From: Alicyclobacillus sp. SO9
GTDB lineage: Bacteria; Bacillota; Bacilli; Alicyclobacillales; Alicyclobacillaceae
Assembly: GCF_016406125.1 (NCBI RefSeq)
Contig: NZ_CP066339.1
Coordinates: forward strand, 372,001 to 436,000
Reading direction: 5' to 3'
Length of the DNA: 64,000 bases
Shown here: piece after piece, positions 32,995 to 46,106 of the stretch
How the letters are laid out: every line of letters starts with the position of its first letter
How positions within the stretch are numbered: position 1 is the stretch's first letter
Translations under genes and position numbers: made by a program
The notes under the pieces: generated by a model
What the model saw: the letters and a program-made list of their open reading frames with translations, nothing else
Told to the model about the DNA's origin: nothing
Database searches by the model: none

Positions 32995-33123
32995 GAATGA
33001 CGGCTTTGGGGGGCGAATTGTGAGACATGACAGTGTGCCTACTGTGGTGCGACACAGTGAGGCTGTCCCGAAGTAAAGGAAATAGAGTGGAGAAGTGAGT
33101 AGTGAGTGGGGTGCAGGTGAGTA

Positions 33124-34330
33124 GCGCGGGCCCGGCGCTGGTAATGGAGTGGAGGATAAGCGTTTGAGAAACGCTTATCTTCAACATTTGGGGGTTGAAG
33201 GAGCGAATAGAGATCCGAGAGGAGCTTATCGGCGGTCCAGGGGTGCGAAAGAGGGGTGTTGGAGCCGGATAAGCATTCGAGAAGAGATTAATCTGGCGAA
33301 TTTCGGTGCAAATGGTGAAATAGCGATCCGGGAGGAGCCTATCGGCGGCTGGGCTGAGGCTGAGGCTGAGGCTGGACTGCGGCTGGAGCGGCGAGTGCGG
33401 GGGTGCAGGTGAGTGGCGCGGGCCCGGCGCTGGTAATGGAGTGGAGGATAAGCGTTTGAGAAACGCTTATCTTCAACATTTGGGGGTTGAAGGAGCGAAT
33501 AGCGATCCGAGAAGAGCTTATCGACGGTCCAGGGGTGCGGAAGAGGGGTGTTGGGGCCGGATAAGCATTCGAGAAGAGCTTAATTTGGCGAATTTCGGTG
33601 CAAATGGTGAAATAGCGATCCGGGAGGAGCTTATCGGCGGCTGGACTGCGGCTGGAGCGGCGAGTGCGGGGGTGCAGGTGAGTGGCGCGGGCGTAGGTGA
33701 GTGGCGCGGGCCCGGCGCTGGTAATGGAGTGGAGGATAAGCGTTTGAGAAACGCTTATCTTCAACATTTGGGGGTTGAAGGAGCGAATAGCGATCCGAGA
33801 AGAGCTTATCGACGGTCCAGGGGTGCGGAAGAGGGGTGTTGGGGCCGGATAAGCATTCGAGAAGAGCTTAATTTGGCGAATTTCGGTGCAAATGGTGAAA
33901 TAGCGATCCGGGAGGAGCTTATCTGCGGCTGGGCAGAGGCTGGGCTGCGCCCGGAGCGGCGAGTGCGGGGGTGCAGGTGAGTAGCGCGGGCCCGGCGCTG
34001 GTAATGGAGTGGAGGATAAGCGTTTGAGAAACGCTTATCTTCAACATTTGGGGGTTGAAGGAGGGAATAGCGATCCGAGAAGAGCTTATCGGCGGTCCGT
34101 GGGTGCGGAAGAGGGGTGTTGGGGCCGGATAAGCATTCGAGAGGAGCTTAATTCGGCGAATTTCGGTGCAAATGGTGAAATAGCGATCCGAGAAGAGCTT
34201 ATCGGCGGTCCAGGGGTGCGAAAGAGGGGTGTTGGAGCCGGATAAGCATTCGAGAAGAGCTTAATTTGGCGAATTTCGGTGCAAATGGTGAAATAGCGAT
34301 CCGAGAGGAGCTTATCGGCGGCTGGGCTGA
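33124..34330. repeat. Four tandem copies of a 280-290 bp GC-rich repeat
   Basis: Copies begin at about 33124, 33416, 33704 and 33984 (at a shared GCGCGGGCCCGGCGCTGG), and the fourth has its second half repeated (about 34189-34330). Each copy carries a perfect 25-bp palindrome with arms GATAAGCGTTT (33155-33179, 33447-33471, 33735-33759, 34015-34039) and further elements in which AATAGCGATCCGAG leads to GCTTATC. Open frames run through the copies on both strands but follow the repeat, not a protein family, so I treat the block as non-coding. Confidence 0.85.
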
Positions 34331-36736: not shown

Positions 36737-37642
36737 CTACGCTGCCGGATTTGGATTTTCGTGACCTAAATTCCTCCGGCCAAACTTGACTCCCGCCCCA
36801 AACAGGGCACTGGCCAGGAGCACCGATGCAACACCCACTGTCGTCCACTTGAACCAGGCCTGCTTGTAGATTGGGATGTGTACAGCTACGGATGACTGCT
36901 TGCTGTTTGGCGGTGTCACCAGCGTTCCGTTTTTGGCGTAGAGAGCTACCTGTCCGCCTTTGGTCTGAACGAGATCGAGTAATTGAGGAGTCTTTTTCCA
37001 CGGCACCATGTAGTAAAACAAGGTTACGTGCGGACTGGAAGTCAGGTAATTGTCAGCGTGATTGATGATGTTTTGCTGTGACAGTACGCCTTTCTTCTCC
37101 GGGAACGCCACGCTGTTTGACCAGGTACGACTGTACGATCCGATGGATCCGTTTTTATTGACGGCTACCTTGAAACCGTTGGCCGGAAACGGGATGCCGT
37201 TGGCAACTCTGGTAAAACTCACAGTAAATTGGGCACCTTTTAAAACATTTGGATGCAAAGGGTCCAATTTTACGAGTTTGGAATGAGACGGATCCAGTTG
37301 TTGAATCAGTTTCCGGGCAATGGCCACAGCCTGTTTGTTCGTGGTTTTTCCTTTGGCAGAGGCCGCAGTAGCGATGGAAGAGAACCGCTCAACTGTTCCG
37401 GACATAGACACAAGTGCAGTGGAACCGTTTGCATATAAAATGTTCCATTCCGGCAGCTTTTGTTGATTGGAGATCTTTGTGGCTTTCTCAACAGATCCAG
37501 GGTGAAATGCGTTGGAAACTATGTTTTCCGCTTGTTGTTTAGAAATTTGAGATGCAGCCTGAGATGTGCAAACGCTTGCATTAACTGCCGCAAAAAAACC
37601 GAGGATGGAGAACAGAGCCCAAAACTTCGCCTTTAACCGCAA
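36737..37642 (-). CDS. YcdB/YcdC-domain secreted membrane-anchored protein
   Basis: About 301 residues. A signal sequence (FWALFSILGFFAAVNASVC) is followed by an extracellular PepSY/YcdB-type region with IPFPANGFKVAVNKNGSIG, then SYSRTWSNSVAFPEKKG. A C-terminal membrane helix (VGVASVLLASALFGAGVKF) ends in a short basic tail. TTG 37642 has AGAGG 8 nt upstream; GTG 37651 overlaps that site. Proteins with this domain are common on spore-formers' surfaces; the role is unknown. Stands upstream of the amylase with a gap, so co-transcription is uncertain. Confidence 0.7.
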   Translation of the reverse strand: MRLKAKFWALFSILGFFAAVNASVCTSQAASQISKQQAENIVSNAFHPGSVEKATKISNQQKLPEWNILYANGSTALVSMSGTVERFSSIATAASAKGKTTNKQAVAIARKLIQQLDPSHSKLVKLDPLHPNVLKGAQFTVSFTRVANGIPFPANGFKVAVNKNGSIGSYSRTWSNSVAFPEKKGVLSQQNIINHADNYLTSSPHVTLFYYMVPWKKTPQLLDLVQTKGGQVALYAKNGTLVTPPNSKQSSVAVHIPIYKQAWFKWTTVGVASVLLASALFGAGVKFGRRNLGHENPNPAA

Positions 37643-37901
37643 TATGTTCACCTCTTTTCATTTTAAGTTCAAAGTAAAGTTGAAAAATGAAGTTGAAAAA
37701 TTGAATGCAAGAAGTCGATGGATTGTCTTGTGAGACGTTCAGTCGATGACGCAGAAGTTTAAGACAAACATTTGACTCTTGTAACATCACTACCATAAAA
37801 CAAGTCGTTTGTAAATAGGTCTGCGTTTGAAGAGGTTTGTGCTCAAACGGTGAAAACTGAACGGATCCCCTTTTAAAATAGGTCTTGATAAATGATTTTA
37901 G

Positions 37902-37933
37902 TTGACAAAATTCGATAAATCATGCAGGATAAT
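37902..37933 (+). promoter_or_regulatory. Candidate promoter of the riboswitch-che operon
   Basis: TTGACA at 37902-37907 and GATAAT at 37928-37933, with a long 20-nt spacer, lie just before the c-di-GMP riboswitch. The spacing is not ideal, so the exact start needs mapping. Confidence 0.35.
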
Positions 37934-37954
37934 AGAGATAAAATTTCAGAAAAA

Positions 37955-38030
37955 CGGCATACCAATGGAAACATTGGGGCGCAAAGCTACGGGGCTAAGG
38001 GACTTTTGTACTATGCCGGCCGAGTTGCCT
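37955..38030 (+). ncRNA. Cyclic-di-GMP-I (GEMM-I) riboswitch aptamer
   Basis: The sequence matches the GEMM-I consensus. A closing stem pairs GGCA (37956-37959) with TGCC (38026-38029). The first hairpin is CCAATGGAAACATTGG with a GAAA-type loop. The conserved core GGGGCGCAAAGC follows, then ACGGGGCTAAGG, a second hairpin arm and GCCGGCCGAGTTGCC. This RNA binds c-di-GMP and here sits upstream of cheX-cheY-cheA. An open frame across it has no ribosome site and is not a gene. Confidence 0.92.
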
Positions 38031-38051
38031 GAGTATATTTACTCTAAAGAT

Positions 38052-38078
38052 GCGCCTGTGTTTGAGGCGCTATTTTTT
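38052..38078 (+). terminator. Riboswitch expression-platform terminator
   Basis: GCGCCT (38052-38057) and AGGCGC (38065-38070) form a stem with a 7-nt loop, followed at once by TATTTTTT. It lies 22 nt after the aptamer, so c-di-GMP binding can decide between termination and read-through into cheX. Which state is ON is not certain from sequence. Confidence 0.85.
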
Positions 38079-38231
38079 ATATCCAAATCCTTGGGAGATG
38101 AATACAGGGCAACTGCTGATAGACTACGTCGTACATAGCACTCATACGAATTTAATGCTCAGCTTCCCAGCGTAGTCATTATCGTGACAAGACAATTCAT
38201 TCTACTCGCAGCACGAGGGAGGCATATAGAA

Positions 38232-38699
38232 ATGGGCGGAAATTCGGCCTTATCGTCGGTAGTGACGGAGATTTTAAACAGCACATTGGACGCAGTGACC
38301 ACAGTCATTTCATCACCAGTCAATCTTGGAGCTCCAGAATTACTGAAAAATGCTATTCACCAACCGGAAATGGGCGTCTTAATTGGCATTGCAGGTGACT
38401 ACCCAAGCCGGCTCATCATTGAAGCGAAACGGGATGTCTACTCCACACTGGCCGCTTCGATGTACGGAATGGCTCTAGAGGGAGAGATGCTGGAGTCATT
38501 CGTAGGAGAAATAGGAAACATGGTTGGCGGAAACATGTGTACCAACATGTCAGAACGAGGAATGCTGCTGGAGGTAACGCCGCCTACGGTTTTGGTCGGG
38601 CAAACCAAATTGAGCGGGTTTCATACAGCCTTGTCAGTGGCGGGAACGGTAGAGAGTGTGGGTGACATGAGAATTAGCCTGCTCATTACAGAAGGTTGA
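38232..38699 (+). CDS. cheX: CheX-like CheY-P phosphatase
   Basis: A 155-residue protein of the CheC/CheX/FliY phosphatase family, which removes phosphate from CheY. The active-site helix is visible (FVGEIGNMVGGNMCTNM: Glu and Asn of the E-N motif). ATG 38232 has GAGGGAGG 9 nt upstream; the frame opens earlier at 38184 without one. It is the first gene after the c-di-GMP riboswitch and is followed by cheY and cheA. Confidence 0.85.
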   Translation: MGGNSALSSVVTEILNSTLDAVTTVISSPVNLGAPELLKNAIHQPEMGVLIGIAGDYPSRLIIEAKRDVYSTLAASMYGMALEGEMLESFVGEIGNMVGGNMCTNMSERGMLLEVTPPTVLVGQTKLSGFHTALSVAGTVESVGDMRISLLITEG

Positions 38700-38806
38700 C
38701 GAGTTGGTATCTATATACAAACGCCTGCTTCGCATTGTGCGAGTCAACCAGCGGCGACAATGATAGATGGGGTAACAGAATAATTTTGTTCAGGGGGTAA
38801 TGGGTG

Positions 38807-39166
38807 ATGGCCAATGTATTAATTGTAGACGATGCAGCCTTTATGCGGATGATGATGAAAAACATGTTGGAGAAAAATGGATTCACCGTTGTGGGTGAAG
38901 CAGCCAACGGAAATGAAGCGCTTGAGCAGTTCAAGGCACTTAATCCGGACATTGTCACATTGGATATAACTATGCCGGAAAAGGACGGCCTGACGGCGCT
39001 CAAGGAAATTCGACAACTGGATCCGAATTCCAAGATTATTATGGCATCTGCCATGGGTCAGCAAAACATGGTGATTGAAGCGGTTCAAGCGGGCGCAGTT
39101 GACTTCGTCGTGAAGCCCTTCGAAGAATCCAGAGTTGTCGAAGCCTTGAAGAAGGTTGTGGGCTAA
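38807..39166 (+). CDS. cheY: CheY-like single-domain response regulator
   Basis: A 119-residue receiver domain. It has the acidic pair in LIVDDAAFMR, the phosphorylated Asp in TLDITMPEKDG, Ser in MASAMG in place of the usual Thr, and the lysine in FVVKPF. No output domain is attached. GGGGGTAATGGGTG precedes ATG 38807. It is the likely substrate of both the CheA kinase just downstream and the CheX phosphatase upstream, but with no motor gene here its target could be something other than the flagellum. Confidence 0.9.
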   Translation: MANVLIVDDAAFMRMMMKNMLEKNGFTVVGEAANGNEALEQFKALNPDIVTLDITMPEKDGLTALKEIRQLDPNSKIIMASAMGQQNMVIEAVQAGAVDFVVKPFEESRVVEALKKVVG

Positions 39167-39168
39167 AC

Positions 39169-41514
39169 ATGAGCAGTGAATATCTTTCCATGTTCATTGA
39201 TGAAACCAGGGAAAACTTGCAGTCGTGGTCCGACGGCATCCTGGAGATGGAACAATCACAGGACGATGCGCAAGTACCAACTATCTTCCGGGCGGCTCAT
39301 ACCATCAAAGGTATGGCTATGACCATGGGATTTCAGCGCATGGGGGAGATTACACATCGGGCAGAGAACCTCCTTGACGGCATTCGACAAGGGAGTGTCG
39401 AGCTTTCTACGGATGTTGTGAATGTGTTGCTGCAGTCACTCGATGTCCTTGAACAACTGCTTGACGGGATTGAAGAAACACAAGTTGAACCAGAGACAGA
39501 TGTCCGGGAATTGGTGCAGGCGGTTGAGCGGCTCGCCAATGGACAAACACAGGCTCCGAAGGAAGTCTCTGCAACAGCGGAACGTCAAGTGCAGGAGATA
39601 TCAGTGGACACATCTGGTACCGCGTCCGCGCAGCTTCAGGACTCAATTGAGTCCATTGCACGGAAGGCCATCGAAAAAGGCTACCAAGTCTATGACATCA
39701 CCATTGGGTTTGCAACAGAGTGTATCATGCCAATGGCAAGATGGGCTCAGGTGTTGCAAGGCCTCAATCAAGATGAGCTGTTGTCCACCAATCCTGATGC
39801 TGCAGTACTTGAAACAGGAGAACATACAGGAGATATTTCGTTTGTTCTGGCAACCAAGGATGATATTGAAGCCATTGGTAAGCGTGTTTCATCAGTAACT
39901 GAAGTGGAGATTCGGGTTTTACAACAGTGGACTGGACAAGCTGGTCTGACAAGTGATCAAGGCAGCCTGTTACCCCAGGAAAAACTCTCTAATGAAGACC
40001 ACATCCTGACTGCTGTGGAGGCAGCGTTGTCCCAGCAAAAAAACGTGTATGAAGCAGGGGTTCGGTTGTACCCGGATACAGCCATGAAGAGCGCTCGTTT
40101 GTACATGTTGTTCGAAGCTGTCGGCGGACAGGATAGACTCCTATACACTTCTCCTTCGATGGCCGACATTGACAATGAAAAACTAGACACTGATGTGTTG
40201 TTCATTATGTGGTCGGACAAGACGGAAGAAGCCGTTCGTGCCATGCTTGAATCTGTTTCCAGTGTTGCAGAAGTTGCGGTTCGGAACTGGACGGCAGACA
40301 GCACTACTGTCGCTGAAGGCACGGCTGACGCGGCCAAGCAGAAAAGTGAAGGGGCTTCTTCGTCAAAATCGAAGCGGAAAGCCTCAAGTACAGTTCGTGT
40401 GGATACCGAAAAACTGGACGTATTAATGAACTTATTTTCAGAATTGGTCATTGACAAAACCAGGTTACAAAAGATTGAACAGGATTTGGGCCACACGGAA
40501 CTGGGCGAGACCGTGGCGCACATGAGCCGCATCTCTAATGAACTTCAAGAAATTGTCATGAGTATCCGTATGGTCCCCGTCAGTACCGTCTTCCACCGTT
40601 TTCCCAGAATGGTTCGCGATACATCACAGAAACTGGACAAGCAAGTCTCTTTTGAAATGACAGGTGAGGAGACAGAACTGGACAGAACTGTTGTTGAAGA
40701 AATCGGCGATCCCATTATGCATATGCTTCGCAATGCGCTCGATCACGGTTTAGAATCCTCACAGGACCGCATATCCGCCGGTAAGCCTGTCCAAGGCCAC
40801 ATTTTCCTTCGCGCTTATTCTTCAGGAAACTCCGTGTTTATTGAAGTTGAGGATGACGGCGGCGGCATCAACAGAGATGCAGTTTTGTCACGTGCCATAG
40901 AGCGGGGCATCGTTGAGGACGGGAGAGCAATGAGCGATGAGCAAGTCTATCAACTCTTGTTCGCTTCTGGTTTCTCCACAGCGGAGACTGTGACAGACTT
41001 GTCTGGCCGCGGTGTTGGCCTGGATGTCGTGAAGTCAAAGATTGAGTCGTTGGGCGGACGCATTGAGATTCAAAGCGAACTGGGAAAAGGAAGCAAGTTC
41101 ATTATTCAACTCCCTATGACTCTGGCAATCATGCAAGGCCTCATGGTGTCCGTCGGCGGCTCCCCATACCTTCTGCCGCTTAGCAGCGTGTCTGAAGTTG
41201 AAGCGGATGTGTCGGTACAGACCGTGAGCGGACAAGAAGTGTTTAAGTGGCGAGACGAAGTCGTTCCCTTGGTTCGAGTCAACTCTGCTTTTGGCATGGA
41301 TAGCGGGAAGGACCAGTACACCATTGTTGTACACAAAGGAAATCGTAAACTCGGCTTGGCAGTGGACGATGTGTTAGGTCAATCTGAAGTTGTTCTGAAG
41401 CCGCTTGGATCTCGGTTGCGAGAAGTACAGTGGTTCTCCGGCGGTACGATTCTGGGCGACGGAACCGTTGCACTCATCATGGATCCGAACTCCTTCTTTG
41501 AGAACGCAGTATAA
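39169..41514 (+). CDS. cheA: CheA histidine kinase with two P2-like domains
   Basis: A 781-residue chemotaxis-type kinase starting 2 bp after cheY. The P1 phosphotransfer domain has the phosphorylated His44 (FRAAHTIKGMA). Two related P2-like segments follow (about 155-250 with MARWAQVLQGLNQDELLSTN, and 270-370 with SARLYMLFEAVGGQDRLLYT), then a P3 dimer helix (VRVDTEKLDVLMNLFSELVI), a P4 kinase domain with MLRNALDHGLE and VEDDGGGIN, and a P5 CheW-like end. Double P2 is unusual and may let it serve more than one response regulator. Confidence 0.93.
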   Translation: MSSEYLSMFIDETRENLQSWSDGILEMEQSQDDAQVPTIFRAAHTIKGMAMTMGFQRMGEITHRAENLLDGIRQGSVELSTDVVNVLLQSLDVLEQLLDGIEETQVEPETDVRELVQAVERLANGQTQAPKEVSATAERQVQEISVDTSGTASAQLQDSIESIARKAIEKGYQVYDITIGFATECIMPMARWAQVLQGLNQDELLSTNPDAAVLETGEHTGDISFVLATKDDIEAIGKRVSSVTEVEIRVLQQWTGQAGLTSDQGSLLPQEKLSNEDHILTAVEAALSQQKNVYEAGVRLYPDTAMKSARLYMLFEAVGGQDRLLYTSPSMADIDNEKLDTDVLFIMWSDKTEEAVRAMLESVSSVAEVAVRNWTADSTTVAEGTADAAKQKSEGASSSKSKRKASSTVRVDTEKLDVLMNLFSELVIDKTRLQKIEQDLGHTELGETVAHMSRISNELQEIVMSIRMVPVSTVFHRFPRMVRDTSQKLDKQVSFEMTGEETELDRTVVEEIGDPIMHMLRNALDHGLESSQDRISAGKPVQGHIFLRAYSSGNSVFIEVEDDGGGINRDAVLSRAIERGIVEDGRAMSDEQVYQLLFASGFSTAETVTDLSGRGVGLDVVKSKIESLGGRIEIQSELGKGSKFIIQLPMTLAIMQGLMVSVGGSPYLLPLSSVSEVEADVSVQTVSGQEVFKWRDEVVPLVRVNSAFGMDSGKDQYTIVVHKGNRKLGLAVDDVLGQSEVVLKPLGSRLREVQWFSGGTILGDGTVALIMDPNSFFENAV

Positions 41515-41537
41515 AGAAAAATGTAATGTAGCGGGTG

Positions 41538-42170
41538 ATGAAGATGTATATAGACGAGAAGGCGATATCGGCTAAGACCAACGACCAAGACCTACAGTAT
41601 GTTATTAAAACAATGGAGTCTGAGCTCGACTGGCTTGTCAACAAGTTCATCAGGCAGTGGCCTGTGGAACGCGATGAGATTAAGCAGTGGCTCCGGATTG
41701 AAATTTGGCACGCCGTGAAAAAGTTTGAGCCAAACAAACTCTCCTTTCCGGCGTATTGTCGGTTTGTAGCCTCAAACCATATTAAGGCTCGTATCCGTCG
41801 TTACATGTACAGCAAGAAATCCTACGCCAATAGAACGGCAATTCGGCTGGATACAGAAGAAGAGGAAGGTACCTTCGAGTGGGTCCTGACTGAGTTGCCG
41901 AAAGCGGGATCGGCTGAAAGTGGTTTTCTGCGCCGCACCGCACTCTCCTCCGTGCAACAATACTTAATGAACGGAGATTTCACCACTCTGGAGCGCGATT
42001 GCTTGAAGCTATTCTATATCCATGGATACACCTACGAAGAAATACAGAAAATTCTCAAACTGCAAAGTAAAAAATCCATCGATAATGCTTTGAGAAGAGG
42101 AAAAAAGAAGATTAAGTGTAAACCGGAAATGTATAACACCTATCAGGAACTTCAGGTCCTGCCAAACTGA
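41538..42170 (+). CDS. Sigma-70-family-like regulator at the end of the che operon
   Basis: About 210 residues. The N-terminal half resembles sigma region 2 (FIRQWPVERDEIKQWLRIEI, then FEPNKLSFPAYCRFVASNHI and IKARIRRYM). The C-terminal half has a region-4 helix-turn-helix (TLERDCLKLFYIHGYTYEEI, then KSIDNALRRGKKKIK). It resembles SigH/SigI-type alternative sigma factors more than typical ECF ones. It begins 23 bp after cheA, so it lies in the riboswitch-controlled operon. The ribosome site is weak (GCGGGTG). Regulon unknown. Confidence 0.7.
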   Translation: MKMYIDEKAISAKTNDQDLQYVIKTMESELDWLVNKFIRQWPVERDEIKQWLRIEIWHAVKKFEPNKLSFPAYCRFVASNHIKARIRRYMYSKKSYANRTAIRLDTEEEEGTFEWVLTELPKAGSAESGFLRRTALSSVQQYLMNGDFTTLERDCLKLFYIHGYTYEEIQKILKLQSKKSIDNALRRGKKKIKCKPEMYNTYQELQVLPN

Positions 42171-42222
42171 CTGCCAGCCGAACTATGGGGCGGCCATAGG
42201 ATGTTAGGTTAGGTTACGTTCA

Positions 42223-42442
42223 GAAGGATGGAAGTTCGGAAGGATGGAAGTTCGGAAGGATGGAAGTTCGGAAGGATGGAAGTTCGGAAGGATGGAAGTT
42301 CGGAAGGATGGAAGTTCGGAAGGATGGAAGTTCGGAAGGATGGAAGTTCGGAAGGATGGAAGTTCGGAAGGATGGAAGTTCGGAAGGATGGAAGTTCGGA
42401 AGGATGGAAGTTCGGAAGGATGGAAGTTCGGAAGGATGGAAG
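42223..42442. repeat. Tandem array of a 16-bp unit, about 13.7 copies
   Basis: The unit GAAGGATGGAAGTTCG repeats without visible error directly after the sigma-like gene. Because 16 is not a multiple of 3, all three forward frames are open and encode the same peptide shifted in phase; these frames have no ribosome site and are not genes. Confidence 0.92.
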
Positions 42443-45078: not shown

Positions 45079-45160
45079 GCGTGGCTTCAGGGACAATGAA
45101 CGAAAATGTGCGAAGGGAGGAAGCGAAGGGAGGAAGCGAAGGGAGGAAGAATTCAGTTCC

Positions 45161-46106
45161 GCCCACATCACACCCCTCCGTTCACAAATCCGCCATAAAT
45201 TAGTATCTGCCGTGGTTCGGATGTGACGAAAATGTGACGGTGGGTGGTCCTCGGGAGCTGATCAGCAGAAATAGCGATCCCCGAGACGCTTATCTGGCAT
45301 TGAGGCTACACGTACACACAAATAAGCTCCTGCAAAGTGCTTAAGCACCCGAATGGCCCGGGGATCTGATGGCTGCCTTAGGAATAAGCTTGTCTCGCGC
45401 GCTTATTTTGATGGCGGGGACCTGATTTCAGGCAATAAGCGCTTCTCGGATCTCTATTGTCCACGCCCCGCCCACATCACACCCCTCCGTTCACAAATCC
45501 GCCATAAATTAGTATCTGAAGTGGTTCGGATGTGACGACAATGTGACGGTGGGTGGTCCTCGGGAGCTGATCAGTAGAAATAGCGATCCCCGAGACGCTT
45601 ATATGGCATTGAGGCTACACGTACACACAAATAAGCTCCTGAGAAGTGCTTAAGCACCCAAATGGCCCCGGGATCCGATGGCTGCCTTAGGAATAAGCTT
45701 GTCTCGCGCGCTTATTTTGATGGTGGGGACCTGATTTCAGGCAATAAGCGCTTCTCGGATCTCTATTGTCGAGGCCCCGCCCACATCACACCCCTCCGTT
45801 CACAAATCCGCCATAAATTAGTATCTGAAGTGGTTCGGATGTGACGAAAATGTGACGGTGGGTGGTCCCCGGGAGCTGATCAGCAGAAATAGCGATCCAC
45901 GAGACGCTTATATGGCATTGAGGCGACACGCACACACAAATAAGCTCCTGCGAAGTGCTTAAGCACCCGAATGGCCCTGGGATCCGATGGCTGCCTTGGG
46001 AATAAGCTTGTCTCGCGCGCTTATTTTGATGGCGGGGACCTGATTTCAGGCAATAAGCGCTTCTCGGATCTCTATTGGCTCAGCCTCGCCCGCATCACAC
46101 CCCTCT
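45161..46106. repeat. Three tandem copies of a 309-bp repeat plus a partial fourth
   Basis: Copies start at 45161, 45470 and 45779, and a fourth begins at 46088 and breaks off after about 19 bp. They are nearly identical. Each contains AATAGCGATCC...GCTTAT, AATAAGCTCCTG...AAGTGCTTAAGCACC, AATAAGCTTG...GCGCTTATT and AATAAGCGCTTCTCGGATC, i.e. the same AATAAGC/GGATC elements seen at 33-34 kb. The period is 103 codons, so a 60-codon frame recurs in each copy; it has no ribosome site and is not taken as a gene. Confidence 0.92.

Follow-up and report, generated by a model that had tools for sequence, protein, structure and literature searches.

Flagellar chemotaxis of the Bacillus and Thermotoga type employs the kinase CheA, with domains P1 to P5, together with CheY, CheX, CheC, CheD, CheR, CheW and the receptors, and cyclic di-GMP (c-di-GMP) is known to act on motors by way of PilZ proteins and also on flagellar operons and single receptors. 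Here we describe an operon of Alicyclobacillus sp. SO9, within a stretch of 64,000 nucleotides of its genome (the window; NZ_CP066339.1, positions 372,001 to 436,000), in which a c-di-GMP riboswitch precedes cheX, cheY, cheA and a sigma-70-family gene. The components are those of the Bacillus and Thermotoga type. The window cheA, however, is not in the flagellar and chemotaxis (fla/che) operon but lies behind the riboswitch together with cheX and a second cheY, and its product has two P2 domains.

Riboswitches for c-di-GMP before motility, chemotaxis and adhesion genes are established (PMC6366702). The leader described here resembles Cd1 of C. difficile, which lies before the flgB operon: Cd1 is likewise of class I, is controlled through a terminator, is an OFF switch, as ours probably is, and is followed by motility genes and by sigD, a sigma gene (PMC6366702). 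Cd1, however, heads an early flagellar operon, whereas here cheX, cheY, cheA and the sigma gene lie away from the fla/che genes and the sigma factor resembles SigH, not SigD. In the B. cereus group the riboswitch Bc1 precedes a gene for a methyl-accepting chemotaxis protein (MCP) (PMC11218506), an arrangement that four receptor operons of this genome resemble, and a riboswitch–MCP case is described for B. anthracis as well (PMC6366702). The target here, in contrast to that of Bc1, is a kinase with a phosphatase and a regulator, so that all receptors using the window CheA would be affected. A search of the literature did not bring up any riboswitch described ahead of cheA or cheX, though this is weak evidence, as most subscription papers are outside its coverage. 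Nor did it bring up the recurrent placement of the riboswitch on CheA or the linked sigma gene; that such riboswitches control receptors and, in C. difficile, the flagellar operon is already known.

At the gathering threshold the window contains only one Rfam match, a full-length match to RF01051 (c-di-GMP-I, or GEMM-I) with a score of 79.7 bits against the gathering score of 35 (E 4.9e-14). The ligand contacts are G20, A47 and C92 in Vc2 and G11, A38 and C81 in Bc1 (PMC11218506). By the same correspondence G11 and A38 are present in the window aptamer, and C83, matched by position and by eye, is an invariant column in the alignment of the 20 riboswitches of this genome. Behind the aptamer the terminator scan found a stem followed by TATTTTTTAT (Table 1). 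Since terminator-like sites are not commoner in the region than in shuffled sequence (3 against a mean of 4.2), the meaning of this one comes from its position behind the aptamer. When transcripts that end at 38058 and 38064 are folded, the minimum-energy structure has the terminator arm, as UGCGCCU, paired with GGGCGCA of the aptamer core in an anti-terminator; these free folds have energies of -33.2 and -34.4, compared with -29.3 and -31.2 when the aptamer is enforced, while in the fold of the transcript ending at 38070 the terminator wins. The match of terminator arms to their own aptamers is also better than that after swapping in 99.6% of permutations (fraction as good 0.004, pooling the 29 of 35 leaders with a usable terminator), and the fit of the window arm to its own aptamer ranks first of the 29. 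Taken together, the modelling indicates that the leader is probably an OFF switch acting through the terminator.

Behind the leader cheX, the second cheY of the genome (cheY2), cheA and the sigma-70-family gene follow on the same strand with gaps of about 107, 2 and 23 bases, taking the starts as set in the analysis. CheX scores 49.2 bits against PF13690 (cut-off 27) and 31 bits against PF04509, also over its cut-off, though it does not reach the Thermotogales-specific equivalog NF041094 (65.3 against 280). It carries GEIGN, in which EIGN matches the E-x-x-N motif of CheX phosphatases. From the sequence the start of cheX is probably the ATG at 38232, behind GAGGGAGG, rather than the listed GTG at 38184. 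CheY2 shares 63% identity with the CheY of the fla/che operon (CheY1) and keeps its sequence pattern. In CheA the domains Hpt, P2, H-kinase_dim, HATPase_c and CheW-like are found in this order, five Pfam families over their cut-offs. The aptamer, terminator and four genes were all read from the letters in a first-pass annotation of this DNA, and the covariance search, the terminator scan and the domain matches bear that reading out. The same annotation pointed out that a separate promoter for cheX would make the riboswitch irrelevant; the scan gave no promoter-like site in the interval from the terminator to cheX, which is a weak test because the number of sites that it gives in the region (6) matches that expected by chance (5.5). 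For the operon itself TTGACA is present at 37902 with no -10 hexamer at an allowed spacing, and inspection of the 20 leaders of the genome by eye made no shared promoter evident.

We searched the host genome (5.29 Mb, two contigs) for the remainder of the pathway. PF01584, which covers CheW and the C-terminus of CheA, has three matches, two of them stand-alone CheW frames and the third the window CheA (a frame of 803 codons), so that one CheA is found in the genome. Ten genes account for the 11 MCP matches, one frame containing two of them; FlhA and CheR are each found once, and three proteins are of the CheX/CheC/FliY type. The genes for CheR and the receptors lie away from the fla/che operon. 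Flagellin is present with two matches, the weaker in an adjacent frame of 299 residues. The fla/che operon (L044, L045) contains fliG to flhA, flhF, flhG, cheW, cheC and cheD, with cheY behind fliY, the names being assigned by position and likeness and not each by profile. Neither cheA nor cheB lies between flhG and cheW, no genome-wide search for cheB having been made, and sigD is not found between cheD and rpsB. For comparison we used 41 genomes of the same family (f1) and 18 of a second family (f2) of the same order. At 23 of the f1 cheA loci the gene is still found beside flhF/flhG/flhA (in L295 its position is that of the match in the genome-wide CheA search and not of the open reading frame listing). 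As these relatives keep cheA in the fla/che operon, the gene is here missing from its ancestral position, and the one behind the riboswitch belongs to a different CheA lineage.

The genome contains 20 matches to RF01051, and the first target could be read for 19 of the leaders, including that of the window operon. Four riboswitches head MCP genes or operons, one of them via an AMP-binding gene, which means that 4 of the 10 MCP genes are headed by a riboswitch compared with 0.03 expected. The other first targets are seven GGDEF or GGDEF-EAL genes, a Tad/Flp pilus cluster with TadE, a fatty acid desaturase, a FapA-like gene, a TIG-domain protein and three genes without a Pfam match. Neither the fla/che region nor that of flagellin contains a match, judging by the positions of the genome matches and by a scan of L044, L045 and L242 with an RNA model, R1. 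R1 includes no more than 7 base pairs and works mostly as a model of sequence, and it recovered those Rfam matches that could be compared. Two aptamers, one before the desaturase of this genome (L030:3001-3087) and one before an MCP and a sigma gene in G037 (L253:7429-7512), have A and not G at position 11, which corresponds to G20 of Vc2; A in place of G at this position favours 3',3'-cGAMP. Seven of the 20 riboswitches precede genes making or breaking c-di-GMP (e.g. L025, L029, L032-L035), a class of target that is described as rare for this riboswitch (PMC6366702).

Since the genome has flagellar and receptor genes and no second CheA was found in it, the kinase most likely serves flagellar chemotaxis, and it seems likely to us from the gene content and the leader that the operon is the chemotaxis kinase module of this genome placed under c-di-GMP control. 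In a sessile cell, where c-di-GMP is high, the aptamer would close, leaving the terminator arm free, and transcription would stop, so that the kinase, CheX and CheY2 would fall together with some of the receptors. When c-di-GMP is low the terminator arm would pair with the aptamer core, RNA polymerase would read through and the cell would be able to steer. Phosphate on CheY2 would be expected to reach the flagellar switch because CheY2 resembles CheY1. None of the flagellar structural genes is controlled by a riboswitch of this class here, suggesting that it is the steering that would be gated and not the motor; with the only CheA behind the riboswitch, the whole chemotaxis pathway would become optional while the flagellum is still built. 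The least certain step is the last, in which the sigma factor would be expressed with the other proteins and turn on a set of genes in the motile state.

To see how far the arrangement recurs, all 46 strong CheA matches in f1 were scanned with R1. Half of these loci (23) are outside fla/che operons, and 10 of the 23, the window operon among them, have a riboswitch at the head of the operon. By chance about 0.03 riboswitch-headed cheA loci would be expected within 1,500 nt upstream, though the relatives are not independent and the tail value is only indicative. The riboswitch is followed directly by cheA in L222 (G024) and L225 (G002), by genes for an EAL protein and CheW and then cheA in L243 (G014), and by MCP, cheA and cheW in L259 and L260 (G003, G018). 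In L246 and L245/L310 of G024 the order is cheX-cheY-MCP-cheW-MCP-cheW-cheA, and in L305 and L312/L239 (G030, G032) it is EAL-MCP-cheY-cheX-MCP-cheA. A search for the gene order in related genomes, suggested in the first-pass annotation, thus does find riboswitch-headed cheA operons, three of them of types that also contain cheX and cheY. In G002, G003 and G018 the single CheA is riboswitch-headed, as are all three of G024. Among the 13 loci outside fla/che operons that lack a riboswitch, L232, L301, L306 and L308 end 100 bases or less upstream of cheA, in L297 and L302 the stretch ends at a contig edge just behind an open reading frame in the place of the EAL gene, and L233 has only 1.2 kb; six or seven of the 13 are cut off upstream in this way. 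None of the 23 fla/che cheA loci has a riboswitch in the stretch scanned, which in the relatives does not cover the operon head about 20 kb upstream. The riboswitch is also absent from all 62 loci scanned out of a set of 80 named ones, the 18 not included (L161-L178) being from Campylobacter.

In a tree of 50 CheA rows (28 of the 46 f1 loci, 17 from f2 and 5 others) the 10 riboswitch rows require 6 gains or losses, and well-supported branches force at least 5 of these. In 500 shuffles of the labels none was as low as 6, because close relatives share the riboswitch. As the riboswitch-headed operons differ in their first gene, the sequences favour separate recruitment of the riboswitch to cheA operons, although losses are indistinguishable from gains. 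Its placement on different CheA lineages suggests selection for the arrangement, and the recurrence in relatives suggests that steering has repeatedly been put under c-di-GMP control. The window CheA itself groups among the 17 f2 rows with 100/100 support. The window CheX, on the other hand, is nearer to that of f1 (44-48% identity for most, 39% for L251) than to that of f2 (31-32%), so that to judge from the sequences the operon may be a mosaic. The P2 domain of the window CheA is doubled, the two stretches matching each other at E 2e-9, and the genome has two CheY proteins; the f2 relatives of CheA are mostly equal in length to this double-P2 protein. In three relatives the first gene behind the riboswitch encodes an EAL-domain protein, a c-di-GMP hydrolase (L243:7092-7955, L305:713-1540 and L312:3676-4506, the last assigned by overlap with L239 and likeness and not by profile), and in such operons the hydrolase could close a feedback loop. 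The L245 and L246 clusters of G024 are near-identical, with identical CheA, and lie about 34 kb apart.

The product of the fourth gene of the window operon matches the sigma-70 superfamily model TIGR02937 with 45.4 bits against a cut-off of 42.9. Region 4 (PF08281) is just over its cut-off (26.1 against 25.7) and region 2 below (20 against 24); region 2 is over the Pfam cut-off in the relatives L244, L253 and L247 but not in L246. SigH is the nearest relative among solved structures (3mzy, 5.6e-14 to the family profile) and curated models, the likeness covering regions 2 and 4 only. The SigH equivalog TIGR02859 is not reached, at 36.7 bits compared with a cut-off of 294.8, and the genome has a separate gene with a better SigH-like match (C1:4706987-4707553). 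We also considered whether this could be the missing SigD. Genome-wide there is no match to the FliA/SigD model TIGR02479 over 189.6 bits, the best being 126.9, and the window protein is not among the 19 matches listed; with no FliA/WhiG match over cut-off and SigH-like scores, this identification was rejected.

A single-sequence search of 81 genomes gave strong relatives of the window sigma in G070, G014 and G024 and weaker ones in G078 (two loci) and G037. With a profile applied to the 59 genomes of the order, four members scored 264-302 bits, all of them rows used in training, and the next 104. These four, chosen by sequence alone, all lie behind or beside a riboswitch, where 0.015 would be expected for riboswitches alone. 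Besides the window operon they are in L253, as riboswitch-MCP-sigma, in L244, as riboswitch-sigma with a divergent riboswitch-MCP, and in L246, where the sigma gene is just upstream of riboswitch-cheX and hence not itself under that riboswitch. SigH-like sigma genes also lie behind a riboswitch in G010, G028, G011 and G021 (in G021 with an MCP between), though the score of one of them, in L247, to a SigH-type model (162 bits) indicates that these are another family. The recurrent neighbourhood strengthens the hypothesis of a sigma-driven transcription output of the operon, and we tentatively propose, as a possibility short of an even chance, a recurring module of the family in which the riboswitch controls chemotaxis genes together with a dedicated sigma factor, coupling steering to a separate transcription programme. 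The position of the sigma gene with riboswitch-controlled chemotaxis genes would provide a route from the second messenger to a gene programme. If so, the family would be a chemotaxis-state sigma factor, a new kind of output for c-di-GMP riboswitches.

Several observations speak against parts of the scheme in which c-di-GMP turns off the kinase of flagellar chemotaxis, and they have to be weighed with the alternatives. No receptor, cheW, cheB, cheR or flagellar gene adjoins the operon, as the first-pass annotation had seen correctly; the tested neighbours are an alpha-amylase, a YcdB/YcdC-domain protein, a GntR-UTRA regulator and a DUF218 protein. That annotation had also suggested that this may be a non-flagellar signalling system. 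A non-flagellar chemosensory system would act on another output (type IV or Tad pili, development or sigma-driven expression), and the second CheY, the sigma-like gene within the operon and the riboswitch before the Tad/Flp cluster would fit with it. The genome, though, has flagellar genes, among them FlhA, flagellin and the fla/che operon, CheC, CheD, CheY1, CheR and ten MCP genes with only the one CheA found, and CheY2 retains the CheY1 sequence pattern. On this gene content, which is indirect evidence, we reject the non-flagellar system as very unlikely. The related claim that c-di-GMP is linked to a complete phosphorelay holds for kinase, regulator and phosphatase, but the operon alone is without receptors and CheW. 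The relatives are not uniform either: the other f1 cheA loci outside fla/che operons show no riboswitch in the stretch scanned, the two of G017 and G001, for example, being complete upstream, and it is found in none of the 17 cheA-bearing f2 loci within the stretches scanned, although these hold close relatives of the window CheA, nor in an eighteenth with a cut cheA (L133).

The sense of the switch is likewise open to argument. The permutation fraction depends on the version of the analysis (0.095 with 14 own leaders in the first version, 0.049 with own leaders only and 0.048 with relatives only), and three riboswitches, those before MCPd and the FapA-like gene and that of L036, have an own-aptamer fit among the worst. 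The equilibrium probability of the terminator is 0.99 with or without the aptamer constraint, so that a switch would have to be kinetic. In the B. cereus group expression from the riboswitch before the MCP gene was unresponsive to c-di-GMP in vivo, while Bc1 turns on reporter genes in B. subtilis (PMC11218506). An ON switch, in which c-di-GMP would prevent termination and so increase cheA expression, as might serve surface sensing, would agree with these Bc1 fusions, with the three riboswitches of this genome that lack an arm-to-aptamer fit and with energy models that are unable to fix the sense. For this leader, however, the folds of the nascent chain, the pooled fit of arm and aptamer and the first rank of the window arm all favour OFF, and we consider an ON switch unlikely. 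The sigma factor could be unrelated to chemotaxis, its gene being a passenger that lies behind cheA by chance, with the neighbourhood in relatives a coincidence or annotation noise. In line with this, region 2 of the window protein is below the Pfam cut-off, and the relatives in G070 and at the two G078 loci, which are outside the order, have neither a riboswitch in the stretch scanned nor a place beside chemotaxis genes of the reference set. As all four members in the 59 genomes adjoin a riboswitch, we regard a passenger as rather doubtful, and retain the operon as the probable kinase module of flagellar chemotaxis.

Table 1. Positions in the window of the leader elements and genes of the riboswitch-headed operon and of the gene upstream.
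Feature	Position	Strand	Evidence
Divergent gene upstream of the riboswitch	36737-37651	-	
c-di-GMP-I (GEMM-I) riboswitch aptamer	37946-38032	+	RF01051, model 1-87 of 87
GGGCGCA in the aptamer core, proposed anti-terminator partner of 38051-38057	37977-37983	+	minimum-energy folds
Intrinsic terminator, expression platform	38052-38079 (stem 38052-38070, then T-run)	+	scan and fold
cheX, CheY-P phosphatase	38232-38699	+	PF13690, PF04509, both above cut-off
cheY2, second single-domain CheY of the genome	38807-39166	+	PF00072, 118.3 bits
cheA, sole CheA found in the genome	39169-41514	+	domain matches
SigH-like sigma-70-family gene	41538-42170 (listed open reading frame from GTG 41535)	+	TIGR02937, PF08281

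Between a YvyF-like gene and flgM-flgN-flgK-flgL-hag in the flagellin region (L242:13113-13643; G000:C1:4201112-4201642, minus strand) lies a gene for a sigma-like protein of 176 residues. Its region 4 is nearest to FliA, at 59.7 bits and below the cut-off, and the gene may encode a flagellar sigma factor in shortened form.

Directly 3' of the sigma gene of the window operon, at 42218-42442, are fourteen nearly perfect copies of a 16-base repeat, and other repeat arrays are present in the window at 33108-34208 and 45159-46105.

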